NCBI GenBank assembly: GCA_031261325.1
Contig: JAISKH010000027.1
Span: 1-64,000 of the forward strand
Reading direction: 5' to 3'
DNA from: Oscillospiraceae bacterium
Lineage (GTDB): Bacteria > Bacillota > Clostridia > Oscillospirales > Oscillospiraceae
DNA: 64,000 bases
A program made the position numbers and the translations under genes. Shown here one piece after another: positions 9,523 through 47,484 of the stretch; the stretch's first letter is position 1, and each line of letters opens with the position of its first letter. The notes beneath the pieces were generated by a model. It was not told the origin of the DNA. It did no database searches and worked only from the letters and a program-made list of their open reading frames with translations.

Positions 9523-10091
9523 AATATTCTCCACGTTCCGCCGAGGCGACTCTTGTTGCGCGTAACGCCGCGCTTGCTGTATTAGTTTTTTGAATTTTTT
9601 CCAATCTCAAAGGAGATTCGCTTGCCCTACGCGGGCGGCGCCCCCTTTCCAACGCGGGAAAGGGGGGAAAGCGCGCTTAAGAGGGGCTGCCGCCCCTCTT
9701 AAGAAGCTCCCCGCTTCTCAAAACAATCAAGTCTCCAGTCGCTATCGCAAATTATAGGTTCTACAGCGCGGAACAAGACTACACTCAAGTGCAAGCTCGC
9801 TTCGCGAAAGCTGACAGCGCTGCAACGCACATGTCCTTGCCGAATGGCAGCTTGCAACCCAAGCATTGACCTTTTGTCCGTAACGCCGCAATTGGTTTGC
9901 GCCTAGCATCGGGGGTGATTTTTAAGAGGGGGCTTGCCCCCTCTTAAATGCGCTTCCCTCCCTTTCTCGCATAAGAAAGGGGGTCCCCGCCGGACAGGCG
10001 AGCAAATCTCCTTTGACAATGGAAAACAGTAGAAAAAGCTAATAAATCAAGTGCGGTGTTCCGCGACAAAGGCGGTATGCCGCTGAAATAA
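9523..10091. repeat. Palindromic element, copy B
   Basis: A roughly 569-bp copy in reverse orientation relative to copies C and D. It has hairpins CCCCCTTTCC...GGAAAGGGGG and TTAAGAGGGGC...GCCCCTCTTAA in its left arm and the equivalent pair in its right arm (about 9930-9992). Its inner part reads as the reverse complement of the inner part of C. The outer arms are of a second type (GTTGCGCGTAACGCCGCGCTTGC...CTCAAAGGAGATT) that C lacks but the right arm of copy E has. It contains no supported gene; the end points are estimated from arm similarity. Confidence 0.8.
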
Positions 10092-10135: not shown

Positions 10136-10725
10136 TCCTTATTCCCACGTCCCGCCGAGGCGACTCTCTCGTCCATCGTCTTATCGCCGCGCTCCGCCGT
10201 TCCATATCTGTTATCTATTATCAGTTATCTGTTACTTGCTCCTTGCGCTCCCCGCGCGGGGCCCCCTTTCTTATGCGAGAAAGGGGGGACAGCGCATTTA
10301 AGAGGGGGCAAGCCCCCTCTTAAAAATCACCCCCACAGCTAGGCGCAAACCAACTGCGCAGTTACGGGCGACAAGTGTAAACTGGGGATTGCAAGCTGCC
10401 ACTTGGCAAGGACAAATCGTTGCAACGATGTCAGCTTTCGCGCGAGCGAGCTTGCACTCATGTTTGAACCTTTTTCACGTAATGAGTGACCTGATTTGCG
10501 ATAGCGTCACCAATCCCAAGTGTTCTGAGAAGCAGGGGATTCTTAAGGGGGCGCAGCCCCCTTAAGTGCGCTTTCCCCCCTTTCTCGCATAAGAAAGGGG
10601 GCCCCGCGCGGGTAGCGCAAGGATAAGTAACATCTAACAAATAACTGATAACAAATATGGAACGGAAGAATACGACGTAGGACGAAAGACGATGAGTGCC
10701 GCGCGGCGGGACGTGAGAATAAGGA
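10136..10725. repeat. Palindromic element, copy C (full length, 590 bp)
   Basis: The best-defined copy. It starts TCCTTATTCCCACGTCCCG and ends with the inverse (CGGGACGTGAGAATAAGGA). The arms contain GTTCCATATCTGTTATC-type tracts, CCCCCTTTCTTATGCGAGAAAGGGGG and TTAAGAGGGGGCAAGCCCCC on the left, and the inverted equivalents on the right. The centre holds a further stem (TGCAAGCT...AGCTTGCA) around TGCCACTTGGCA. The whole element is therefore one imperfect palindrome. It has no transposase and no supported gene. No clear target-site duplication is visible. Confidence 0.9.
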
Positions 10726-13839: not shown

Positions 13840-14423
13840 TCCTTGTTCCCCCGTCCCGCCGAGGCGACTCTCTCGTCCCGCCGCGCGGCGCATCTTTCCG
13901 TTCCATATCTGTTATCTATTATCTGTTAGATGTTATCTACCCCTCGTCCTACGCGGACGGCGCCCCCTTTCTTATGCGAGAAAGGGGGGAAAGCGCATTT
14001 AAGAGGGGGTAAACCCCCTCTTAAAAATCTCCCCCACAGCTAGGCGCAAACCCAATGCGGCGTTACGGGCAGTAGGTTAACATTGGTGTTGCAAGCTGCC
14101 ACTTGGCAAGGACATGTACTCAGCTGTCGCTAGACCTTGACGAATGTCAGCTTGCATTTGTACTTTAACTTGTTCCGCGCTGTAGAACATAACATTTGCG
14201 AAAGCGTAACTAAGCCAAAGTGCTCTGAGAAGCAGGGGATTCTTAAGGGGGCGCAGCCCCCTTAAGTGCGCTTTCCCCCCTTTCTCGCATAAGAAAGGGG
14301 GTCCCCGCCGGATAGGCGAGGAAATAGGTTATCTAATTTATACCAGATAACAGATATGGAACGGCAGAGCGCGGCGCAAGACGAAAAATAAGAGCGCCGC
14401 TCGGCGGCACGGGAGAATATTGA
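13840..14423. repeat. Palindromic element, copy D (full length, ~584 bp)
   Basis: Same orientation and same order of parts as copy C: TCCTTGTTCCCCCGTCCCG start, GTTATCTATTATCTG tract, hairpin CCCCCTTTCTTATGCGAGAAAGGGGG, hairpin TTAAGAGGGGGTAAACCCCC, central stem, and then the mirrored right arm. In its centre the segment after GCAAGCTGCCACTTGGCAAGGACA differs from C and partly matches copy B (GTTCCGCGCTGTAGAAC), so the centres come in at least two versions. No gene is supported within it. Confidence 0.87.
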
Positions 14424-14805: not shown

Positions 14806-17802
14806 ATGAGGAAGAGAAACGTTGGAAAAACGCTTAATGTCGTGGTGTCGCTGCTGCTGGTGGTGACGCTGCTCGGGGGCGTTGCTTACCTCACGCCCAA
14901 AACAATCGCCGGGGCGGAGGGGAGCGCGCTCGTCAACGAGACTATTGCGCCGAAATTCGGTGAAAACGTAAACGGCGACGCGGCGACCGAAACCCCGAAC
15001 GGCACTCCGACGGCTGACGGCGTGATTATACATTATAATGTGTCGCAGCTCGTCGATTTGTACGAGGACGCGCTCGCCGCCGGGAATTGGTTCGCGGCGG
15101 AGGACGCGCTCGCTAAGGTGCCGGCGGAAAACGAGGAGCTGATTGCGTCTTTCGACAGGTACGCGCCCGGCGAATGGCTGCTGCTCGACACCGTTTACTC
15201 GTCGCTGCTCATCGAGGACGGCGCAACGTTCGAGCAACTTGATACCGCGCTGAACAATTCGTCCGTCGCTTACATAGTCGCAACGCGCGACCTTGAGGAG
15301 CTGTCCGCGATATTTATAGAGAAAAACGGCGAGCAGTTCAACCTGAAAATCAATTCGGATTATGGCGAAATCGAGCCGGAGAGCGAGAGCGACGAGATTA
15401 CAATCCTGCCCGAAGCACCCGACGAGACCGCCGCGCCGCAACCCGAAGCGCCTACCGCCGAGCCGACAGCGCAGCCTGAGCCAACCGAGGAGCCCCAAGG
15501 CAACGAGAACGCCGAGTTCGCGGGCGTTGCCGCGCCTGAATTTAACGCGCCCGAGGACGCGCCCGAAGTCGTCCCGACCGAGCCGACAGAGCCGCAGACG
15601 GAGACGGACGCGGAGCCGACCGAGCCTGCTGCCGAGCCTGACGCGCCCGTGACCGAGGACGAACCCGCCGAGGACGCGCCGCCCGCCGAAGAGACGGAGC
15701 CGACCGACGAGCCGCCCGCCGAGGAACCCGCGCCGCAGACGGAGCTGCCGCCCGCCGAGGACATAACGCCTGACGTCGAGTTCTACAACCCCCCCGACGA
15801 CGTAATATTCACGCCCGACGACGAAACGGGCGAAGCCGACGACACGCTAATCATAACGGAACCCCAAGTCTACTTCATTCCCGACGGAGCGTCCGAATTT
15901 GCGATTAAAGTTTCTGCACCTGTCCCTACAGCTCTCCCCGATAGCTATAATGTAACTGTTGTAAGGACTGCACATTATCACATAGGTTACAATAACGCTA
16001 CTATTGACCCTGAACCAACATCATATTCGGAGAGAGGACACGTCTGGGCAAGCAAAAATGTTATACCTCCTGTAGGCGATAGTAACCTTTTCACAGTTAC
16101 ATTAACGGTAGGCGGTAATGTATACGGTAGCAATGAAAATCCTCTTGCGGCTGGAACAGACTTCGCAATAACAGATGTATTGAACGGCTATACAATTGAA
16201 GCTGTAACTGGATATACAGAAAACAATACAGAAAAAACACCTCCGTCTTTTAGCGGAACATGGACAATCGAACACGATGATTTCGATGATACTGACCTCA
16301 TTCGGACACTTACCTACACAATCAAACCACCCACAACAGGCGATTTCACAACCGCCGACGTACCCTCCGGCAATGCGTCTGTACAGTTTACTCCGGCAGA
16401 GGGGAACCCATATTATTATGGCGGTGAAACGGTGGTTGATAAGCATATCATATTTGGTGCAAATATCAATGATTCTGGTACTTTTGTATGGGCTAGCGTT
16501 AGCGGTGTAAACACATTCCAAATCAGCAATGTTGACATTAGAGACACAAGACCACAACCTCCTAATGGCGAAGGAACTGGTTGGGTATTGTCCTTGGTTG
16601 GTGAAAGCTATACAACGTCAAATGATGGCGTGACGTACAAGGGACATACAGAAAAAGACGATTATAACAACGATAGATGGGAATTATGGACGCGTGCTGA
16701 CGCTTCATTTACTTACCTAGAGGTGCAATATAGGAAGAAGCTTGCTCCAAATAGTCCGATTACTGCTTTAATAGAGTTCACGCTTTATACTAAGTCGGAT
16801 GGTGGACTGCTGAACTACTCGCCTATAGTATACAAGGAAGTAATCGACGGTTCGAAACCTACAACCGATGACAATCACCCAATAAACGAAGATTTAGACA
16901 ACGACGGAACCGATGAATCCGTCACCTACACCCTCAACCAATACGCAACAACCACCCCGCAAGCCCTCCTCCTGCAAGTGGTGACGGATAACGGGAACCC
17001 CATTCCCGAACCAACCGCCGGAACCTCGGTGTTCAAGTTATACGACAATACTTACGACGCAAACAATCCCGCAACGGGCTTAATAGACACCTACATCGCA
17101 AACGCATTCGGCGTAATTGAGTTAACGGCACCCAATGGCGGCGCACCCGCGCGGTTGCTGCTCACACCGGGAACTTACACCTTAGTGCAGACTACAGCAA
17201 AAGACGGGTACGAGAAGTTAGCCACCCCGTTCGAGTTCACGATTACTGACCAGTTGGAGCAAGTGGCGACGTTGGTTGGAACGCCTTTGGTAAATGTTGA
17301 ACTAACGGCAAAAGTGGAGACTGACGACTTGGGCAACGTGATAAAGGACATTGCCGCCAACAAGCTGATAACAGTCACGAACGCGGCTTGCAACGGGCAG
17401 ATTGTGATTCAAAAGACGCTGCAAATTCCGACCGGTACTGCTCTTAACGAATCGGTTCACGGTCAAGCGACGTTCCTGTTTGAGGTAAAAGAGTATAGAA
17501 ATGGTGATTTTGAACAGAGTTGGGTTCGCAAGATAACGATTGGCGAGAATGATAACAATACCGGCACTGCGACTGCGATAACAGATTTGCGAACTTCCAG
17601 TACGTACACGGTTACCGAACTGAAAAGTGCGCGATATTCAGCGGCAGCAGCACAAAATGTGGGTTCTGCACAGTTCATAACGGTAGATGGGTACTCCGGA
17701 AAAACCGCAATTGTTCAATTCACAAACGCTAAGTCCGAAGATTCCATTTACTACCTATCCTCAACCGACGTCAAAGAAAACCAATTCGCGGTCACACCGT
17801 AA
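14806..17802 (+). CDS. Large secreted surface protein with PET-rich stalk and prealbumin-like domain
   Basis: A 998-residue exported protein. Residues 1-37 are a signal peptide or anchor (RKRNVGKTLNVVVSLLLVVT). Residues ~55-185 form a helical domain and ~186-348 are a Pro/Glu/Thr-rich stalk. Residues ~365-705 are Asn/Thr/Tyr-rich with AT-rich codons unlike the rest. Residues ~725-832 resemble a SpaA/CnaB prealbumin-like domain (SVFKLYDN, GTYTLVQTTAKDGYEK), and ~864-975 resemble another Ig-like repeat. There is no LPxTG motif or C-terminal membrane anchor. Its stop overlaps the start of the signal peptidase gene, so it heads the operon and is probably an adhesin or matrix component. Confidence 0.75.
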   Translation: MRKRNVGKTLNVVVSLLLVVTLLGGVAYLTPKTIAGAEGSALVNETIAPKFGENVNGDAATETPNGTPTADGVIIHYNVSQLVDLYEDALAAGNWFAAEDALAKVPAENEELIASFDRYAPGEWLLLDTVYSSLLIEDGATFEQLDTALNNSSVAYIVATRDLEELSAIFIEKNGEQFNLKINSDYGEIEPESESDEITILPEAPDETAAPQPEAPTAEPTAQPEPTEEPQGNENAEFAGVAAPEFNAPEDAPEVVPTEPTEPQTETDAEPTEPAAEPDAPVTEDEPAEDAPPAEETEPTDEPPAEEPAPQTELPPAEDITPDVEFYNPPDDVIFTPDDETGEADDTLIITEPQVYFIPDGASEFAIKVSAPVPTALPDSYNVTVVRTAHYHIGYNNATIDPEPTSYSERGHVWASKNVIPPVGDSNLFTVTLTVGGNVYGSNENPLAAGTDFAITDVLNGYTIEAVTGYTENNTEKTPPSFSGTWTIEHDDFDDTDLIRTLTYTIKPPTTGDFTTADVPSGNASVQFTPAEGNPYYYGGETVVDKHIIFGANINDSGTFVWASVSGVNTFQISNVDIRDTRPQPPNGEGTGWVLSLVGESYTTSNDGVTYKGHTEKDDYNNDRWELWTRADASFTYLEVQYRKKLAPNSPITALIEFTLYTKSDGGLLNYSPIVYKEVIDGSKPTTDDNHPINEDLDNDGTDESVTYTLNQYATTTPQALLLQVVTDNGNPIPEPTAGTSVFKLYDNTYDANNPATGLIDTYIANAFGVIELTAPNGGAPARLLLTPGTYTLVQTTAKDGYEKLATPFEFTITDQLEQVATLVGTPLVNVELTAKVETDDLGNVIKDIAANKLITVTNAACNGQIVIQKTLQIPTGTALNESVHGQATFLFEVKEYRNGDFEQSWVRKITIGENDNNTGTATAITDLRTSSTYTVTELKSARYSAAAAQNVGSAQFITVDGYSGKTAIVQFTNAKSEDSIYYLSSTDVKENQFAVTP

Positions 17803-18335
17803 TGAAAAAGGCAATATCGACGCTCTGTAACGTCCTCGGCACGCTGATACTACTCGCGATAATCCTCGCCGCCGGTTCAATCCTACTCCTGCAAGTGCTC
17901 GGCAACACGCCGATGGCAATCCTAAGCGGCAGCATGGAACCGCAATACAAAGTCGGCGGCTTGGTGTTCATCAACGAAAAGGTCACGCCGCAAGAGATAC
18001 GCGAAGGCGACGTAATCAGCTACCACCTAAGCGAAGAAACCGTTGTAACCCACCGCGTAATCGCAATCGAGGGCGAGACTTTCCACACAAAGGGCGACAA
18101 CAACGACAGCGAAGACCTTGCGCCCGTGCCGTTTGCCGACATGATAGGTCGCGCGTGGCTGCATATACCCGGCGCGGGAACTGCGCTGATGAACCTGAAA
18201 ACCGCAAAAGGTTTCGGCGTGGGAATCATCATAATCGCGGTGCTGATAGTTCTGTTTGTGGTTCCGGCGGTGCTCGCCCCGCCCAAGCAGAAACCGGATT
18301 CTGCGGAGAAAGGAGTAATCGGCAATGAAAAATAA
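17802..18335 (+). CDS. sipW: SipW-type signal peptidase I
   Basis: A 177-residue membrane protease of the ER/archaeal-type (SipW) branch, which processes the special signal peptides of TasA-like proteins. It has an N-terminal membrane segment (LGTLILLAIILAAGSILLL), the Ser box AILSGSMEP, the His box VVTHRVIAI, the Asp box TKGDNND, and a C-terminal membrane segment near residues 135-155. It starts at the base where the 998-residue protein ends and overlaps the next gene by 11 bp. Translation coupling with substrates on either side fits a dedicated protease for the three CalY/TasA-like proteins downstream. Confidence 0.92.
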   Translation: MKKAISTLCNVLGTLILLAIILAAGSILLLQVLGNTPMAILSGSMEPQYKVGGLVFINEKVTPQEIREGDVISYHLSEETVVTHRVIAIEGETFHTKGDNNDSEDLAPVPFADMIGRAWLHIPGAGTALMNLKTAKGFGVGIIIIAVLIVLFVVPAVLAPPKQKPDSAEKGVIGNEK

Positions 18336-18909
18336 TAGGCGCAAAACACTAAGTCGGCTGCTTTTACCCCTGGCGGCAATCGTAATCATCTCTGCGCTTG
18401 TGGTGACAATGACGCTCGCCCTCTTCGTAGACACAAGCGACAAGGCAACAAACAGCATAACTCTCGGTCAAATAGGAGTTAACTGTTCTCTGGTTATCGA
18501 TAATGCTACTGCTGTCTCGGATGTTACAGTTGATGCCGAAGCCAAAGTAACAAACTCTAGCGAATTACCAACTTTTATACGCGCACGTGTGATACATAGA
18601 AGCGACGTAGAGGTAATTAAATCTAATATCGACAATAGTGATAACGCCAGCGGTGAAACTTGGAAGAGCGTAGATGACGCTGATGGCTACAAATGGTACT
18701 ATTATAATCAAATCTTACAACCGGGTACTACGACTTCAAGCATTATTGCAACGGTTACGTATAGTGATACACTTACGCAAGCGCAAATTGACGCTGTTCA
18801 AAGTGACCCTGATTTAATCATCGTCTACGCCGAAGCCGTCCAAGCGTGGGTCGGCGCACCCGGGAGCTACGCACAAACCGCCGAACAAGCCTTTGCGGCA
18901 CTCGGTTAA
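18325..18909 (+). CDS. TasA/CalY-like protein 1 with SipW-type signal peptide
   Basis: A 194-residue secreted protein. The N-terminus (RKTLSRLLLPLAAIVIISAL then VTMTLALFVDTSDKATNSITLG) is the SipW-dependent signal peptide, with the cleavage region near residues 30-40. The mature part (SLVIDNATAVSDVTVDAEAKV, PTFIRARVIHRSD) is beta-rich and resembles camelysin/TasA fibre subunits. In TasA-type systems the processed proteins assemble into extracellular fibres. The mature part, about 18480-18800, is much more AT-rich than the signal peptide. It overlaps sipW by 11 bp and is followed 18 bp later by the second paralogue. Confidence 0.8.
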   Translation: MKNNRRKTLSRLLLPLAAIVIISALVVTMTLALFVDTSDKATNSITLGQIGVNCSLVIDNATAVSDVTVDAEAKVTNSSELPTFIRARVIHRSDVEVIKSNIDNSDNASGETWKSVDDADGYKWYYYNQILQPGTTTSSIIATVTYSDTLTQAQIDAVQSDPDLIIVYAEAVQAWVGAPGSYAQTAEQAFAALG

Positions 18910-18927
18910 CAGAAAGGAGCAACAGCC

Positions 18928-19680
18928 ATGAAAAAGAAAATACTACTCCTGCTCCTCGCTGCCGCACTCACAATCTCCCTCGCAATCGGCGGCACACTCA
19001 TGCTCTTCACCGCCCACACCGCAACCGCCACCAACGTTGTAACCCTAAGCCCGGGAATCGAAGCCCAACTCTGGGTCTACGGCGGCAAACTAGACCCGAT
19101 TTCCCCGACCAGTCATTCTCTGCCGCCTTACTATGTCGAGTATCCCGGACTTGAAGTCGGCAGCAACGACACCACGCTCCCGCCGGGCGTACATAACAAT
19201 ACAACCGGCAAGTTCAAAGGTCTAACCTACGTCGTAGCCCCGAACGAACTAATCGACAACGCGCCTTACGTCGTGCGCAACGACGCAAACGGCGCAGACG
19301 CGTACCTAAAGCTTGAGGTTACCTTAAACTTTACAAATGTCTCTCTATCCGACATTCCCGCAGGTGACCTCGCGTTGACAACTCTATTCAACAACACTCT
19401 GAACACCACAAACTGGACGGTAGAGCAGAACGGCAACAAATTCACATTCTACTACACAAGCGGCGGAGCACTCGCCGTATTCGGCAACAACGATTCCACA
19501 AAAGACTATCCGCCCTACACCCAAATCCACATACCAAACTTCAACGCAGAGTTCCTCAACGCCAACAGCACCGTAACCGTCGAAGCCAACGTAACCGCCT
19601 ATCTCGTCCAATCCACATGGAACGACGGCACCCTCTACGGCGACGACGGCACCGAACTCGCGCACTATTTCCCCGCATAA
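18928..19680 (+). CDS. TasA/CalY-like protein 2 with SipW-type signal peptide
   Basis: A 250-residue secreted protein. Its first 40 residues (MKKKILLLLLAAALTISLAI then GGTLMLFTAHTATATNVVTL) are nearly the same as those of paralogue 3 and carry the SipW signature. The mature domain is beta-rich with many Asn/Thr, including a segment LELEVTLNFTN-like (LKLEVTLNFTNVSLSD) typical of TasA-type immunoglobulin folds. AGAAAGGAGC precedes the ATG. No anchor is present, so it is released or assembled into fibres. It differs from paralogue 1 in the mature part. Confidence 0.8.
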   Translation: MKKKILLLLLAAALTISLAIGGTLMLFTAHTATATNVVTLSPGIEAQLWVYGGKLDPISPTSHSLPPYYVEYPGLEVGSNDTTLPPGVHNNTTGKFKGLTYVVAPNELIDNAPYVVRNDANGADAYLKLEVTLNFTNVSLSDIPAGDLALTTLFNNTLNTTNWTVEQNGNKFTFYYTSGGALAVFGNNDSTKDYPPYTQIHIPNFNAEFLNANSTVTVEANVTAYLVQSTWNDGTLYGDDGTELAHYFPA

Positions 19681-19741
19681 TAACCCCCTGTATACTATAC
19701 TAATAGTATAAAATATTATAAAAGAAAGAGGAGACACACAC

Positions 19742-20542
19742 ATGAAGAAGAAACTAGTACTCGGTATCATCGCGGCAGTCCTCGCGCTCTCACTCGCAAT
19801 CGGCGGAACGCTCATGGTTTTCACTGCACAGACGCATGTCGCACAAAACGTTGTAACCCTCGGAAATGCTTGGATTGAACTCCGCGAAGTATACTACACA
19901 CTCGATGGCGACTTGACAGATGACCTTATTGAGGAAGATGGTTGGGGCTTAATTTTTGAAGATGTTCAGCCCGGCGACTCTCTCATTAAGGAGCCGTATA
20001 TCAAGAACGTCGGTTCAATCCCTGTCTATGTTGCCGCAAAACTCGTCGTTAGCAATAATAATGTCGACGGACCGACAGTCGAAGAATGGGTTGGAAGTGA
20101 CGCGAATTCACAAGAGAAAATAGATGCAATTGCAGGAATTGTTAACGTTCCCTATGGTCCTACCCCGGCAGTAGGTCAAGATTACTGGTTTATTAGTAGT
20201 AAATCTGAAACTGGCTTTGATTCTGACGGGAACTTTGTCACAGTTCTTTACTTCGCTTCCTATGGCGAGAATCCAAACAAAAACGGCGAAAATGACTGGT
20301 ATCTCAAACCCGTAGCTGCGGACGGTGGCGAAACAAGTTATCTCTTTGATACAATTTCGATTCCGCTTGGGCTTGACAATTCATGGTTTGATGTATCAAT
20401 CGCCGTTGACATTACCGGCTATGCTATCCAGTCGGCTAACGTTACGAATGGTGACGCCGGAAGCAACTACTGGAACTGGAGTAACACTTCCACCGACGAC
20501 CAGTTCGCCAAACTGTTTCGTGACGATAATGGATTAACCTGA
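19742..20542 (+). CDS. TasA/CalY-like protein 3 with SipW-type signal peptide
   Basis: A 266-residue secreted protein whose N-terminus (KKKLVLGIIAAVLALSLAIG, GTLMVFTAQTHVAQNVVTLG) is again of SipW type. The mature part contains GLIFEDVQPGDSLIKEPYIK and VGSIPVYVAAKLVV, which is the pattern of CalY/TasA proteins (exposed N-terminal strand, then a sandwich). It has its own AAAGAGGAG ribosome binding site. The 60-bp gap before it is AT-rich and contains TATACTATACTAATAGTATA, which may hold a separate promoter. The mature part has AT-rich codons compared with the signal region. Confidence 0.82.
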   Translation: MKKKLVLGIIAAVLALSLAIGGTLMVFTAQTHVAQNVVTLGNAWIELREVYYTLDGDLTDDLIEEDGWGLIFEDVQPGDSLIKEPYIKNVGSIPVYVAAKLVVSNNNVDGPTVEEWVGSDANSQEKIDAIAGIVNVPYGPTPAVGQDYWFISSKSETGFDSDGNFVTVLYFASYGENPNKNGENDWYLKPVAADGGETSYLFDTISIPLGLDNSWFDVSIAVDITGYAIQSANVTNGDAGSNYWNWSNTSTDDQFAKLFRDDNGLT

Positions 20543-20571
20543 TAATTATTTAACTAGCAAATAACAAACAG

Positions 20572-20635
20572 TATAATACATAGCAACGTAACAATAATTG
20601 TCAATTATCAATTGTCAATTGTCAATTGACAGGAC
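20572..20635 (+). repeat. Heptamer repeat block upstream of the anchored protein gene
   Basis: AATTGTCAATTATCAATTG followed by further CAATTGT units runs from about 20596 to 20630, between TATAAT (20572-20577, a possible -10 box) and the ribosome binding site of the gene starting at 20646. It would therefore lie in the 5' leader of that transcript. Confidence 0.7.
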
Positions 20636-20645
20636 GGGGGTTTTG

Positions 20646-21659
20646 ATGAAAAAATCAATAAAGAGGTTGGCTGCCGCCGTGCTGTCAATGGTTATGTTAC
20701 TGACGGTGAGCTCCGCCGCCGCGTTTGCGGCGGAGTCCACCCTGACCGGCAGCGGTTCGACCCAGACGTTCACGCCTTGGAGCGGTACAGAGGTGACAAC
20801 TTACACCTATGACAGCAACAAGCAGCTGACCGACCTGTTCGGCTCTGCGACCAAGGAGTTATCTCCCGGCGATTCGCGCGCCACGGACGTGCTTCTGCGT
20901 AACCAATCGGATTCCGTCGTCACGTTCTACCTCATAGCGAAGTCGCTGACGGTGGAGCAAGCAAGCGAGTTGACGAGACCGACGGGTGACTTTGACACAA
21001 AAACGGCGGCGAACTTGCTTGAAAAGATAACGCTGACGGTGCGGGACGGCAACGCCCCCGCGGATGCCCCCGCGCTGTTCAGCAACACGTTACAAAGTAC
21101 CTTGAGCGCGACGGCAAATGCCGACCCGTTGTACAACGGAATAGGCGCGATGGTGCTGATAGGCGCGGTCAACCCAAATAGTGACGCGCGCGTAAACCTT
21201 CAGGTAGCCTTAAGCAAGGAGCTGAACAATGCCGAGCAGGATACATTGGCGGCGTTCGAGCTGCGGTTCGTGGCGTACATAGAACCCGAGCCGTCGCCGA
21301 ATCCTCCTGACTACCCGGGCGACCCCGACGTTAGCCCGTCCCCGGCGCTGACGAGCTCGCCGACGAGTGAACCGACCGTGGAACCGACAGAAATCGCGGA
21401 GCCGAGCGCACCTCTGGGCGAGTTCTCGCCCCCTCCGCCAACTCCGACCCCGCAGCTGACGGAATTTCCCGAAGGTTCGCCCCCGCTTGGCGAAACGCCG
21501 CCGACGGACGACATACCGACGGTGGTCGTCCCCCCGCAAACGGGCGATTCAGGAATGTTTACATGGACGTTCCTCTGCGCCGCGTCTCTGACCGTGCTTG
21601 TAACCTGGCTCGCAATCGTCTTACTCGACGAACGGCGTAAAAAGCACGAAAAAGATTAA
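20646..21659 (+). CDS. Cell-wall-anchored surface protein with PPQTG sorting signal
   Basis: A 337-residue protein. Residues 1-30 are a Sec signal peptide (RLAAAVLSMVMLLTVSSAAA, AFAAES). Residues ~35-213 form a beta-rich domain resembling the TasA-associated group (DLFGSATKELSPGDSRATDV, LLRNQSDSVVTFYL). Residues ~214-298 are a Pro/Ser/Thr-rich wall-spanning linker. The C-terminus has PPQTGD (about 296-301), a hydrophobic segment and a basic tail, i.e. a sortase signal of the (S/P)PxTG kind recognised by clostridial class B sortases. No sortase is in the window. It probably tethers the fibres of this locus to the wall; that role is inferred from position. Confidence 0.82.
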   Translation: MKKSIKRLAAAVLSMVMLLTVSSAAAFAAESTLTGSGSTQTFTPWSGTEVTTYTYDSNKQLTDLFGSATKELSPGDSRATDVLLRNQSDSVVTFYLIAKSLTVEQASELTRPTGDFDTKTAANLLEKITLTVRDGNAPADAPALFSNTLQSTLSATANADPLYNGIGAMVLIGAVNPNSDARVNLQVALSKELNNAEQDTLAAFELRFVAYIEPEPSPNPPDYPGDPDVSPSPALTSSPTSEPTVEPTEIAEPSAPLGEFSPPPPTPTPQLTEFPEGSPPLGETPPTDDIPTVVVPPQTGDSGMFTWTFLCAASLTVLVTWLAIVLLDERRKKHEKD

Positions 21660-21689
21660 AAAAGTATATAAAAAGCTTCAAAAAGTGAG

Positions 21690-21720
21690 AAAAAGTCCGG
21701 GTAAAATCGGGCTTTTTCTT
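21690..21720 (+). terminator. Intrinsic terminator of the surface-protein locus
   Basis: AAAAAGTCCG (21690-21699), an 8-nt loop, then CGGGCTTTTT (about 21708-21717), about 30 bp after the stop codon. The 10-bp stem includes one T-G pair. Confidence 0.7.
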
Positions 21721-21747
21721 GCGTTTTTTTGCGTTTTGGTGTATACT
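21719..21747 (+). promoter_or_regulatory. Sigma-A-type promoter of the SDR-glycyl radical operon
   Basis: TTGCGT (21719-21724), 17 bp, TATACT (21742-21747). It begins at the end of the preceding terminator and lies 15 bp before the SDR start codon, so the leader is very short. Confidence 0.6.
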
Positions 21748-22624: not shown

Positions 22625-25129
22625 ATGGTAAATAAACAAGAAATAAAGTCGGTGCAAGTGCTGACCCCGCGTCTGCAAAAGCTTAAGACTGACTGGGAAA
22701 ACGCTGCGCCGCAAGTGTATGTTGACGACTCAATCCTGTTCACGCAGTCCTGGAAAGAAACGGAAGGACTGCCGATTGACATTCGCTGGGCAAAGGCGCT
22801 AGAAAAGCGTCTGCTGGAGTGCCCGCTGCTGATTCGCGACGGCGAGCTGATTGTGGGTTCGCTGACCAAGTTCATTCGCGGCAACGGCACGCTGTGCGCA
22901 ATGAAGCCGCGCGAAATTCTGAAGATGGTGGAGAGCGGCAAGTTTGACCGCAAAACCTCCGACATTTCCTCGACAAACATAGACGCCGCAGACCTTGAGG
23001 CATTGCGCGCGGACGCCGAATACTGGATTGAGCACATGCCGAAGGTTTCGAGCGTGAACGCTTCCGTCGAGTTCGACATGGGCGACGACGTGTTTGACCT
23101 GCTGTTCGACCGCGGCATGGTGTTCGAGGGGCGCGGCGTGCGCTACGAAATGGACCGCGGGCTGTTCCAAAACTACTCGTCCTATGGCGGCGGGGTCGCG
23201 CAGGTTTCGGTTAAGTGCGTTGAAAACGGGCTGAATTACGTCATCGACCTGTGCAAGCGCGAGCGCGAACGTATGCTTGCCGAGGGCGACGAGAACAGCC
23301 ACGGCACCGCGCAATTCCTGCGCAAATATTGGTTACTAAAGGCGACAATTATCTCTTGCGAAGCGTTCATCGGTTACGCGCGTCGCCACGCGGAGCTTGC
23401 GCGAGAGCTTGCGGCGACGGAGAGCGACCCCGTCCGCAAGGCGGAGCTGCTGCGAATTGCGGACGCTTGCGAGCGCGTGCCCGCGGAGCCGCCGCGCGAC
23501 TTTTTTGAGGCGTTGCAATGCGTGCGGCTGTATCACCTCGTGTGCTGGAAAGAGTCCTCCGACAGACCGGAGGTGCCGATTGGACGGCTCGACCAACTGC
23601 TTTACCCGTACTACGAGCGCGACAAGGCGGCGGGCAAAATCACGGCGCAGGAAGCGGCGGAGTTGCTCGGCGCGCTGTGGCTGAAAATCCGCGAGTGCGA
23701 AAACCTTGTGACGATACCGCGCGAGCAACGCGCCGCGCCCGGTTCGCTGCTGCCGAACATCACGCTCTGCGGCACGGACGAGCAGGGGAACGACCTAACA
23801 AACGAGGTGTCGTGGCTTGTGCTGGAGGCGATGGCGCAAATTAAGCTGTCGGAACCGGCGATTTACGTGCGATACAATCCTGACATGGACGCGCAATTTG
23901 TGCTGCACGCGCTTGAGTGCAACCGCGAATTTGGCGGCGGGAACCCCGCGTTTTTGAGCGACAAGCTCGGCACGCAGCGTTACCTCGACCGCGGGATTCC
24001 GCTGAAAGACGCTTGCAATTGGAACGCTTCCGGCTGTCTTGGGTACCACCTCGACAGTCTGGAGCACATGGGCGGCGGGCACAACATCAGTCAGTTGAAA
24101 GTGCTTGAGCTTGCCCTGCACGACGGGTTTGACCCGCGCACGCAGAAGCAGCTCGGTCCGCACACGGGCGACGTGCGCGAGTTCACGAGCTTTGAGCAGG
24201 TTTTGGAGGCGTATTACAAGCAGCTCGCGTATTTTGTGCCGATTTTGCGCAAGTTCAAGCTGCTGTCGTGGTCAACGGAGATTGCGGAGGGACCGATGTC
24301 GGGACTGCGCGTCGCGATGCAGTACGAGGATTGCATTCCCGCCGGGCTTGCGTCGCGCGAGGGCGGGGCGCGTTACCCCGAGGGGCGCGCGTGCTGGCTC
24401 GGTTCGCGCGGGCTTGTTGACCTTGCGGACACGATGACGGCGATTAAAAAGTTGGTGTTCGACGAGAAAAAGACGACGATGGCGGAGCTGATGGACGCTT
24501 GCGAAAAGGACTGGGAGGGTTACGAAACGCTGCACAAGCTGTGCATTAACAGCCCGAAATACGGCAACGACGACGACTACGCCGACGAGATTTATGACGA
24601 GATGAGCAAAAAGGTGCCGGAGATTATGCAGTCCGAGGTTGACCCGCTCACGGGTAAGAAGCCGATGCTGTTCATCGGCGCGGCGGCGGGGCACGTCGGC
24701 ATCGGCAAGGCAATCGGCGCGCTGCCGAACGGACGCGCGGCGGGTTCGCCGACTTGCGACGCGGCTTGCTCCGTGTCGCCCGGCTGCGACGTGACGGGTC
24801 CGACGGCGGCGATAAATTCCGCGACGAACGACCTGTACGCCAAGGAGTACGCGGGTTACGCGATGAACATGAAGTTCTCGAAATCCCTGCTGAACACGCC
24901 GGAGAAGATTGAGAAGCTGTCGTGGCTCGTCAAGGCGTTCATGAAGCGCGGCGGCTGGCACATTCAGTTCAACATTCATAGCCGCGAGGAGTTGCTGGAC
25001 GCGCAGGCGCACCCCGAGGAGCACAAAAACCTGCTTGTGCGCGTCGGCGGGTATTCGGCGTACTTCATCGACCTGCCGCCCGGGTTGCAGGCGGAGATTG
25101 TGAACCGCACGATGCACGAAATTATATAA
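22625..25129 (+). CDS. Glycyl radical enzyme of unassigned substrate
   Basis: An 834-residue enzyme of the pyruvate formate-lyase-like family. The C-terminal glycyl loop RVGGYSAYF (radical Gly about 809) is intact. The active-site Cys is most likely Cys471 in NASGCLGYHLDSLEHMGGGH. In the diol dehydratase, choline lyase, isethionate lyase and hydroxyproline dehydratase groups this Cys is followed by V-E-P/I with an essential Glu; here L-G follows and that Glu is missing. Pyruvate formate-lyase has adjacent cysteines, which are also absent. It is thus a divergent GRE, possibly a decarboxylase or C-C lyase. AAGGAG precedes the ATG; the activase follows after 13 bp. Confidence 0.88.
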   Translation: MVNKQEIKSVQVLTPRLQKLKTDWENAAPQVYVDDSILFTQSWKETEGLPIDIRWAKALEKRLLECPLLIRDGELIVGSLTKFIRGNGTLCAMKPREILKMVESGKFDRKTSDISSTNIDAADLEALRADAEYWIEHMPKVSSVNASVEFDMGDDVFDLLFDRGMVFEGRGVRYEMDRGLFQNYSSYGGGVAQVSVKCVENGLNYVIDLCKRERERMLAEGDENSHGTAQFLRKYWLLKATIISCEAFIGYARRHAELARELAATESDPVRKAELLRIADACERVPAEPPRDFFEALQCVRLYHLVCWKESSDRPEVPIGRLDQLLYPYYERDKAAGKITAQEAAELLGALWLKIRECENLVTIPREQRAAPGSLLPNITLCGTDEQGNDLTNEVSWLVLEAMAQIKLSEPAIYVRYNPDMDAQFVLHALECNREFGGGNPAFLSDKLGTQRYLDRGIPLKDACNWNASGCLGYHLDSLEHMGGGHNISQLKVLELALHDGFDPRTQKQLGPHTGDVREFTSFEQVLEAYYKQLAYFVPILRKFKLLSWSTEIAEGPMSGLRVAMQYEDCIPAGLASREGGARYPEGRACWLGSRGLVDLADTMTAIKKLVFDEKKTTMAELMDACEKDWEGYETLHKLCINSPKYGNDDDYADEIYDEMSKKVPEIMQSEVDPLTGKKPMLFIGAAAGHVGIGKAIGALPNGRAAGSPTCDAACSVSPGCDVTGPTAAINSATNDLYAKEYAGYAMNMKFSKSLLNTPEKIEKLSWLVKAFMKRGGWHIQFNIHSREELLDAQAHPEEHKNLLVRVGGYSAYFIDLPPGLQAEIVNRTMHEII

Positions 25130-25142
25130 AAGGGAACATTTT

Positions 25143-26057
25143 ATGTCAGATGTAACAGGAACCATCTTTAATATTCAGCGGTACAGCATCGACGACGGAC
25201 CCGGGATTCGCACAACGGTGTTCGTTAAAGGCTGTCCGCTGCGGTGCCCGTGGTGCTCTAACCCCGAGTCACAAAGCGTTGCGCCGCAAGTGTTGCACCG
25301 CTACACGTCGTGCGTTAAGTGCGGGGCTTGCGCCGCCGCCTGCCCTAACGGGGCGATTGCGTTCACGGCGGAGGGCGGTCCCGCGTTCGACCGCGCGAAG
25401 TGCGTTGCGTGCGGCGAGTGCGTTAGGGCTTGCCTGAATGACGCGCTGAAAATTTCGGGCGAGGTTATGACTGTTGAAAAGGTGTGGAAAACCGTGCGCA
25501 AGGACGAGGTTTATTACGAGACTTCGGGCGGCGGCGTTACTTGTTCGGGCGGCGAAATTCTCGGGCAAGCGGATTTTGTGGCGGAGCTTTTCAAAAAGTG
25601 CCGCGAAAACGGGATTCACACGTGCGCCGACACGTCCGGGTTCGGCACCGCCGAGGCGCTGGACAAGGTGCTGGAATACACCGACCTTGTGTACTTCGAC
25701 CTGAAGCACATGGACGACGCGCGGCACCGCGAGCTTATGGGCGTGCCGCGTGACGTGATTGTGCGAAACCTTGAAACCGTTGCGGCGCGGGGGATTCCCG
25801 TCACGATTCGCGTGCCGCTGATACCCGAATACAACAGCGGCGAGGAAAATCTGCGCGCGACGGCGGAGCTTGTGCGGGCGGTCGCGCCGAACGCGACGGT
25901 CAGCGTCCTGCCGTACCACAAGTACGGCGCGAGCAAGTACGCGTCCGTCGGCATGGTGTACGCGCTGGACGAGCTGCGCGAGAACACGCCGGAGGAATTG
26001 GAGCGCGCGCGCGCGATTTTTGAGGAGTACGGGCTGAAGTGCGAGGTCAGCAAATAA
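25143..26057 (+). CDS. Glycyl radical enzyme activase (radical SAM)
   Basis: A 304-residue radical SAM enzyme that abstracts hydrogen from the glycine of its partner, the GRE encoded 13 bp upstream. The SAM cluster motif is GCPLRCPWCSNPE (CxxxCxxC, about residue 30). An inserted ferredoxin-like domain has two cluster motifs, CVKCGACAAACPNGA and CVACGECVRACLNDA, as in activases of the PFL2/dehydratase group and unlike the short PFL activase. TSGGGVTCSGGE and the C-terminal LPYHKYGASKYASVG are the usual family segments. AAAGGGAAC precedes the ATG. Confidence 0.93.
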   Translation: MSDVTGTIFNIQRYSIDDGPGIRTTVFVKGCPLRCPWCSNPESQSVAPQVLHRYTSCVKCGACAAACPNGAIAFTAEGGPAFDRAKCVACGECVRACLNDALKISGEVMTVEKVWKTVRKDEVYYETSGGGVTCSGGEILGQADFVAELFKKCRENGIHTCADTSGFGTAEALDKVLEYTDLVYFDLKHMDDARHRELMGVPRDVIVRNLETVAARGIPVTIRVPLIPEYNSGEENLRATAELVRAVAPNATVSVLPYHKYGASKYASVGMVYALDELRENTPEELERARAIFEEYGLKCEVSK

Positions 26058-41422: not shown

Positions 41423-42002
41423 TCCTTATTCCCCCGTCCCGCCGAGGCGACACTCTCGTCTTTCGTCCTGCGTCGTAACTTTCCGTTCCTTATCGGTTAT
41501 CTGGTATCAGTTATCTGTTACTTGCTCCTTGCCCTATCCGGGCGGGACCCCCTTTCTTATGCGAGAAAGGGGGGAAAGCGCACTTAAGAGGGGCTGTGCC
41601 CCTCTTAAGAATCACCCCCACAGCTAGGCGCAAACCTATTGCGGTGCTACGGGCAACAAGTTAACATAGGTAGTGCAAGCTGCCACTTGGCAAGGATAAA
41701 TCGTTGCAACGCTGTCAGTTTTCGCGCGAGCGAGCTTGCACTTATATGTGAACCTTTTTCGCGTAATGAGTACTATCATTTGCGATAGCGACTGGCGACT
41801 GGAGTGCTTTGAGAAGCAGGGGATTCTTAAGGGGGCGCAGCCCCCTTAAGTGCGCTTTCCCCCCTTTCCCGCATAAGAAAGGGGGTTCCCGCCGGATAGG
41901 CGAGCAAATCTCCTTTGAGAATGAAAAACAGTCAAAAAACCAAAACAGCAAGCGCGGCGTTACGCGCAACAAGTGCCCTGTGGGGGACGCGGGGAATAAG
42001 GA
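41423..42002. repeat. Palindromic element, copy E (full length, ~580 bp, hybrid arms)
   Basis: The left arm is of the first type (TCCTTATTCCCCCGTCCCG ... GTTATCTGTTACTTG) as in C and D. The right outer arm is of the second type (CTCCTTTGAGAATGAAAAAC ... AGCAAGCGCGGCGTTACGCG, then CAACAAGTG) as in the left arm of B. Both hairpin pairs and the central stem are present: TGCAAGCTGCCACTTGGCA and AGCTTGCACTTATATGTGAA. It ends GGGGAATAAGGA. There is no gene inside. It lies just before the hppA terminator. Confidence 0.88.
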
Positions 42003-47262: not shown

Positions 47263-47278
47263 ACTCTCCGTTTATGCG

Positions 47279-47373
47279 GCAGCGGGCGCGGATTCCAAAC
47301 CGTGGCTTCCACCTTCGTCCGGTGAGCAACTCCCCATCTCGACCGGCACTTAACGCTTAAAATCCTACTCTGC
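47279..47373 (-). ncRNA. Tetrahydrofolate (THF) riboswitch
   Basis: Read on the minus strand it begins GCAGAGTAGGATTTTAAGCG and contains GCGTTAAGTGCCGGT, GATGGGGAGTTGCTCACCGG, ACGAAGGTGG and GGAATCCGCGCCCGCTGC. These match the conserved blocks of the THF riboswitch (GAGUAG, GCGUUAAGUG, GGAUG, CGAAGG, and the closing GAAUCxxxxCCGC). The P1 ends GCAG/CTGC pair. It lies upstream of folT, a folate transporter, which is the classical target. Ligand identity follows from the family; switching through the Shine-Dalgarno stem is inference. Confidence 0.93.
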
Positions 47374-47484
47374 TGTCAATCCATTTTATGATTGACGCGA
47401 CTATTGTAACACGCGCGCGACGCGTTGTCTATAGGAATTGTGCACATAGACGACATTTTTGCGACGAACGCCGCCGCGCGTGAG

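Follow-up and report, generated by a model that had tools for sequence, protein, structure and literature searches.

The DNA analysed here (64,000 nt of contig JAISKH010000027.1 of Oscillospiraceae bacterium; below, the window) comes from contig 31 of a 2.44-Mb, 97-contig assembly that is 89% complete. Six genes on its plus strand encode, in this order, a giant secreted protein, a SipW-type signal peptidase, three TasA/camelysin-like proteins referred to as CalA, CalB, and CalC, and a protein with the sorting motif PPQTG (the anchor protein). This locus is a variant of the SipW-dependent fibre loci with two additions, one being a predicted TasA-fold protein with a sortase anchoring signal, and the other, a tip-pilin-like giant with a tail resembling a donor strand. 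The reading we favor, with a probability of about 0.58, is that the six genes would produce a wall-anchored TasA-type fibre, the giant serving as a donor-only cap and the PPQTG protein as an acceptor-only base.

Gene content of the locus and its recurrence in Clostridia

The preliminary description of this DNA had placed at positions 14806-21659 a 998-residue secreted protein, an overlapping SipW, three subunits, and a PPQTG substrate. All of them were confirmed, each open reading frame (ORF) being found at the noted place, and family and profile matches support the interpretation of the region as a locus for a SipW-dependent fibre, with three subunits homologous to one another and a partner anchored by sortase (Table 1). 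The giant ORF and sipW share one base (TAATG), sipW and the CalA gene overlap by 11 bases, and the spacers CalA-CalB, CalB-CalC, and CalC-PPQTG gene are 18, 61, and 103 bases long, respectively, the last one being measured to ATG 20646, a more probable start than TTG 20598, judging by the typical signal peptide. Given this spacing, the six genes are likely co-transcribed; promoter-like sites upstream of the PPQTG gene, such matches being weak evidence, would allow for a second transcription start.

The peptidase retains the catalytic motifs SGSMEP, HR (HRVI), and GDNN, and scores 78 bits against the Bacillus SipW equivalog NF046067, below the required 190. By these matches it is classed as the same kind of enzyme as Bacillus SipW, but not as its orthologue. 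A search of the genome collection with the peptidase as a query retrieved only distant SipW loci of other types. The same genome encodes more SipW-type peptidases, at L049:2509-8652 (contig 37) and L051:8683-9243 (contig 40); the former adjoins large proteins with SipW-like signals that are foreign to the six-gene module, and similar arrangements are seen in loci L055 and L058. Both L049 and L051 were rejected as copies of the module, as their proteins differ.

CalC matches the camelysin/Peptidase_M73 family PF12389 (27.6 bits, cut-off 22.5) and the SipW-type signal model TIGR04088 (24.4 bits, cut-off 19). No family match above the cut-off was obtained for CalA and CalB, CalA failing the BsaA family TIGR04090 (18.2 bits vs. 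60 needed); a subunit of the related locus L098 passes this threshold (65.3 bits). CalA is homologous to CalC through relatives, and all three subunits are connected in this way. All of them carry SipW-type signal sequences and lack a sorting signal, and the donor-strand motif considered below is found in three out of three (alignment A2 of the subunits). The search of PDB with the subunit profile yielded nothing. As the structural model of CalA is too poor, the TasA fold of the subunits rests on sequence, by which CalA, CalB, and CalC are classified as homologous TasA/camelysin-like fibre subunits.

A second full copy of the module, in the same order and with three subunits and an NPKTG anchor, is present in the same genome (L050:6471-13952, contig 37); its 1254-aa giant (L050:10188-13952) is a paralogue of that of the window. 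Next to this copy lies a convergent gene for an 838-aa leucine-rich PPKTG protein (L050:3837-6353). The same six-gene order is found in two congeners (L053, and L061, whose giant is truncated at the end of the contig), and in a third one (L056) the N-terminal part of the giant is seen at a contig end. Since the same order recurs in the same genome and in two congeners, the cluster is not due to chance. Full-length matches to the anchor profile were found in four out of 12 genomes of the genus, and matches over the TasA-like domain, in about 30 out of 391 genomes of the class. The preliminary description had proposed to seek the gene order in other Clostridia, and, apart from the congeners, it was found in other orders of the class, with the giant followed by SipW, subunit(s), and anchor (L176, L177); in other families of the same order, SipW is usually followed by subunits, a giant, a further subunit, and an anchor (e.g., L059, L098, L110). 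In Acetoanaerobium noterae DSL2, the order is giant (863 aa, with a VWA domain), SipW, two camelysin-type subunits, and LPRTG anchor. This locus was reached by the VWA match, that is, independently of the tail, and its anchor and subunits match the anchor and subunit profiles (A1 and A2, respectively) at 5e-21 to 3e-27. Thus, given the spread over the genus, the order, other orders, and A. noterae, we see a widespread kind of clostridial locus.

Predicted wall-anchored protein, giant protein, and the proposed fibre

The PPQTG protein consists of an ordinary signal peptide, a TasA-like domain (residues about 30-215), a Pro-rich spacer, and a sorting signal. It has the features of a sortase substrate, i.e., an xPxTG motif, a hydrophobic segment, and a basic tail, with a sortase in the genome. 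In alignment A1 of the anchors (14 sequences, aligned throughout), P.TGD is present in 14 out of 14 sequences, PGD is invariant, and the FLSQ/GNEYQ pattern is conserved, with the sorting signal after it. The anchor profile matches the subunit profile with an hhalign probability of 97.6%, and its only matches in PDB are two TasA sequences (E 0.07). The top Foldseek matches of the AlphaFold model of the anchor domain among 350,542 chains are TasA (5of2, 2.5e-4) and the Pyrobaculum bundling pilin (7ueg, 2.6e-4), the latter being an archaeal TasA-like pilin. Taken together, the profile and the model suggest that the PPQTG protein likely has a TasA-like fold. In contrast to the subunits, the donor motif is absent in 15 out of 15 anchors with an ordinary signal peptide, the best score with the profile of subunit N-termini being 3.9. 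No anchor relatives were found in the viral collection. The 360-aa protein L112:4823-5905 has both a SipW-type signal and an SPYTG sorting signal, and its mature N-terminus, IVTQSDPLINTFS, is similar to a donor strand (score 16.6); it appears to be the reverse combination to the window anchor and is perhaps a wall-bound donor.

The class B sortase that the preliminary description suggested looking for is encoded on contig 16 of the same genome (TIGR03064, 200 bits, cut-off 153.75), and a second, class D-like sortase, on contig 97, both contigs being other than that of the window. Sortase B of C. difficile is reported to handle PPKTG-type motifs (PMC4155245, PMC5118464), and hence the class B enzyme likely anchors the PPQTG protein.

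The giant comprises a signal peptide, an N-terminal domain (residues about 50-200), a Pro/Glu/Thr-rich stalk (about 203-345), beta domains, a SpaA domain, and a last, CnaB-like domain (about 865-975), followed by a short tail. The prealbumin-like domain mentioned in the preliminary description is borne out by a match to PF17802 at residues 743-817, and the PDB matches of this SpaA domain are CnaB of FbaB/SpyCatcher. When the last 140 residues of 14 giants are aligned, six columns are invariant, including the tail Asn and Phe; Lys, Glu, and Asn positions conserved in the last domain are suggestive of an intramolecular isopeptide bond site. The giant has no sorting signal and no LPXTG, and therefore was rejected as a class C sortase pilin; membrane anchors are absent from the giants as well. 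Comparison with NCBIfam gave no TapA/YqxM match, and, judging by this and by the C-terminal position of its donor-like motif, the giant is not TapA.

With the whole giant as a query, few relatives were retrieved, owing to the variability of heads and stalks. The homologue in genome G008 shares 42% identity over residues 1-277, and the N-terminal domain is common to L050, L053, and L056. VWA heads are present in the giants of L059, L098, L103, L180, and A. noterae, and VWA combined with the GBS104 tip-pilin Ig domain, in those of L116 (66 bits) and L176 (57 bits). A giant with the same tail type, L109:6073-10212, carries a glycoside hydrolase family 20 (GH20) domain at the N-terminus, and hence such fibres may display an enzyme. 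By its domain composition, the giant family has the architecture of tip adhesins. GBS104 and RrgA are tip pilins of sortase pili, a background in line with the tip reading.

The preliminary description had suggested that the system evolved separately, with the giant taking the place of TapA and a sortase signal providing the anchoring; in this view, sortase anchoring would be the innovation. TapA is indeed absent, the PPQTG signal is present, and the genome has a class B sortase, but the PPQTG protein itself is TasA-like and the giant is tip-pilin-like. Moreover, the peptidase, the subunits, and the anchor, that is, all core parts, are homologous to known ones, and the module occurs in a wide range of Clostridia, which makes separate evolution a very improbable explanation.

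The donor strand of TasA, mature residues 28-38, inserts into the next subunit, and the N-terminus of TapA resembles this strand (PMC9674648, PMC10151520). We compared the tail of the giant, YLSSTDVKENQFAV, with FVDTSDKATNSITL in CalA and FTAQTHVAQNVVTL in CalC. The tail and the subunit N-termini align without gaps over 13-15 residues and share the aromatic-hydrophobic-x7-N-x-F spacing. A 13-column profile was constructed from the subunit N-termini only, excluding the giants and, in later runs, also the subunits of the same genome. Over the whole giant of the window, the tail is the segment that scores highest with this profile (17.1-17.8 bits), and the same holds for the giants of L050 (22.6), L053 (19.2), L116, L117, L109, L110, L114, and L108, and for those of the loci fetched later, L176 (18.9), L177 (18.0), L180 (21.1), and A. 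noterae (11.0). Shuffled tails reach the observed scores at p 0.0002-0.0006 in the genus. The tail of A. noterae continues into ...VGGVII, and the subunits, into ...AGTVDV. A tail score of at least 6 was obtained for 13 out of 51 large genes of secreted proteins that adjoin SipW-type subunits vs. two out of 129 other genes (p = 1.4e-6); one of these two (L180) belongs to a locus that had been retrieved because of its anchor homologue. When each tail was matched to the subunits of its own locus, no clear pairing was seen. Cleavage of the tail by SipW was rejected, as there is no hydrophobic segment.

From these data we infer strand insertion, polarity, anchoring, and function as follows. SipW would remove the signal peptides of CalA, CalB, and CalC, freeing their N-terminal strands, and each freed strand would insert into the groove of the next subunit, as in TasA, the subunits thus both donating and accepting strands. 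The giant tail copies the donor strand and would fill the open groove of the first subunit; therefore, the giant could donate but not accept, and would be an end-cap adhesin, with the long Pro/Glu-rich stalk and the rigid CnaB-type domains holding its N-terminal domain outward. The PPQTG protein would accept the strand of the last subunit and be fixed to peptidoglycan by sortase, probably of class B. The order in the fibre would then be adhesin cap, CalA/CalB/CalC, wall-bound base, and the locus is likely involved in adhesion or biofilm formation. As for the origin of this arrangement, we tentatively suggest, at slightly less than even odds, that a tip pilin of the sortase-pilus type had its C-terminal sorting signal replaced with a copy of the fibre donor strand and so came to cap a TasA-type fibre, and that a TasA-fold protein acquired a sorting signal and turned into the wall-bound base.

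Alternatively, the tail might be a conserved part of the terminal CnaB-type domain, either its closing strand or a recognition signal, the giant being a separate, co-expressed secreted adhesin. In line with this, the tail always follows a CnaB/DUF5979/SpaA-type domain, one tail subtype resembles the donor strand weakly, and enrichment of a strict motif failed in the later set of loci (see below). However, the ungapped likeness with the same spacing, the shuffling results in the genus, and the parallel continuation of the A. noterae tail and the subunits render this explanation unlikely; besides, as the giants have neither LPXTG nor a membrane anchor, something else must hold them. The other alternative, to our mind about equally unlikely, casts the giant as a TapA-like nucleator or chaperone, whose tail would provide the first donor strand, starting polymerisation near the cell surface, and which would not be a stable part of the fibre. 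TapA, with its N-terminal copy of the donor strand, acts as a nucleator or chaperone (PMC9674648, PMC10151520), and the giant gene is located upstream of sipW, as is tapA in B. subtilis. Still, the large size of the giants, their stalks, and their multi-domain make-up, with VWA, GH20, or tip-pilin Ig domains in relatives, suit an adhesin, and there is no TapA/YqxM family match. If the tail works as proposed, the giant may share the strand-donating role of TapA without being TapA.

Several observations weigh against the fibre with a giant cap and a wall-bound base. The first is geometry: the tail of the giant is C-terminal, whereas TasA and TapA donate an N-terminal strand, and with a C-terminal strand running in the TasA direction, the body of the giant would exit at the other end of the groove, so that the giant may be a terminator or a side-linked protein. 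Some neighbors were regrouped after inspection in the test that yielded 13 out of 51 genes. The strict motif search in the later, class-level loci showed no enrichment (one out of 48 vs. two out of 62), since the 7-kb range took in many large genes of unrelated kinds; the subunit-derived profile is more informative than this test. The gene groups could not be told apart by a tail rank of 5 or better, and the WLNG tail subtype (WLNG...N.Y/F, L103-L105) scores low. The structural models are of low confidence as well: the predicted local distance difference test (pLDDT) score is 43 for CalA, modeled from an alignment of the three window subunits and having no significant Foldseek match, and 52 for the anchor domain, modeled from a single sequence with a predicted template modeling score (pTM) of 0.50. 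VIA-align gives TasA as the best match of the anchor model (Z 6.6), with unrelated folds almost equal.

Feature coordinates and genomic surroundings

Table 1. Features of the fibre locus in the window (coordinates refer to the 64,000-nt stretch).
Feature	Position	Strand	Basis or remark
Giant secreted protein, 998 aa	14806-17802	+	Signal peptide, head, stalk, beta domains, tail
SpaA/prealbumin-like domain, residues 743-817	17032-17256	+	PF17802, 26.5 bits, cut-off 23.1
C-terminal tail of the giant YLSSTDVKENQFA, residues 983-995	17752-17790	+	Resembles mature N-terminus of subunits
SipW-type signal peptidase, 177 aa	17802-18335	+	TIGR02228, 101 bits, cut-off 51.85
CalA, TasA/BsaA-like subunit, 194 aa	18325-18909	+	TIGR04090, 18.2 bits, sub-threshold
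Putative CalA donor strand FVDTSDKATNSITLG	18424-18468	+	Position matches SipW-type signal junction
CalB, TasA-like subunit, 250 aa	18928-19680	+	Homology to CalC, 2e-10 to 4e-10
Putative CalB donor strand FTAHTATATNVVTL	19006-19047	+	Same column position, subunit alignment A2
CalC, TasA/camelysin-like subunit, 266 aa	19742-20542	+	PF12389 and TIGR04088 above cut-off
Putative CalC donor strand FTAQTHVAQNVVTLG	19820-19864	+	Same column position, subunit alignment A2
Wall-anchored TasA-like protein (predicted), 337 aa	20646-21659	+	Alignment A1, hhalign, Foldseek
Sorting motif PPQTG	21531-21545	+	Followed by hydrophobic segment and basic tail
Intrinsic-terminator-like hairpin	21685-21722	+	16 pairs, then T run; closes the operon

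The genes flanking the locus on both sides are, judging by their sequence, metabolic. The operon is followed by a short-chain dehydrogenase gene and then by genes for a glycyl radical enzyme and its activating enzyme (window 22625-26057). A tetrahydrofolate (THF) riboswitch is located at 47278-47374 on the minus strand (RF01831, 77.9 bits). A dispersed repeat of about 350-490 bp occurs at 13885-14377, and also at 9634-9983, 10197-10669, and 41470-41909. It has long inverted arms (60 nt, 87% complementary), similar to miniature inverted-repeat transposable elements, and no Rfam match; roughly 40 copies with 77-86% identity are scattered across the 2.4-Mb assembly, several of them at contig ends.

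Comparison with known fibre systems

In the searched open-access text, we found no description of a sortase-anchored TasA-fold protein or of a tailed tip-pilin-like giant, nor was a description of the tail itself found in this literature. TasA-type fibres are known from Bacillus and archaea, and the locus addresses the questions of how such fibres end, bind targets, and attach to the cell. The locus type suggests a testable answer, with a cap that only donates a strand, subunits that both donate and accept, and a sortase-anchored base that only accepts. Acetoanaerobium noterae, a cultured environmental species, possesses equivalent parts in an identical order, which makes the model open to testing.

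The locus resembles tapA-sipW-tasA of B. subtilis in having SipW, TasA-like subunits with SipW-type signals, a partner that would donate a strand, and the order partner-sipW-subunit (PMC9674648, PMC10151520). It differs in that there are three subunits rather than one, a sortase-anchored TasA-like protein is added, and the donor-like strand of the partner is C-terminal and belongs to a giant multi-domain protein. The claim that Bacillus loci contain tapA-sipW-tasA only does not hold, as B. cereus forms TasA/CalY heterofilaments with CapP (PMC13082335). As in that system, more than one TasA-family subunit and an accessory protein are present in the window locus; the differences are that CapP is a DUF4047 protein with repeats and that the B. 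cereus system is described as sortase-independent (PMC13082335).

Likewise, SipW fibres are already known from Clostridia. In C. perfringens, the sipW-bsaABCRSD operon, with srtB adjoining it, is responsible for pellicle fibres of BsaA, which polymerises without srtB and has no predicted LPXTG (PMC7395162). Both are SipW-dependent systems with a TasA-like polymer, which is predicted in the case of the window, in anaerobic Clostridium-type hosts, with several secreted proteins in the operon. In contrast to the bsa operon, which includes a two-component system, the window operon has no regulator; compared with SipW and BsaA, it has in addition a tailed CnaB-type giant and a sortase-anchored TasA-like protein.

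Sortase pili, with tips such as GBS104 and RrgA, share with the locus type the VWA and GBS104 Ig domains, found in the giant relatives L116 and L176, as well as CnaB-type stalk domains and wall anchoring by sortase, which is a prediction in our case. Unlike sortase pili, the window locus lacks a class C sortase, its subunits lack LPXTG, and the giant ends in a donor-strand-like tail, not in a sorting signal. If the model is true, the combination of a single conserved tail with variable heads (VWA, tip-pilin Ig, GH20, SpaA) would constitute a general display system of anaerobic Clostridia, and donor-strand fibres of Gram-positive bacteria, widespread in Clostridia, would have a defined adhesive tip and a defined base, as chaperone-usher pili do.

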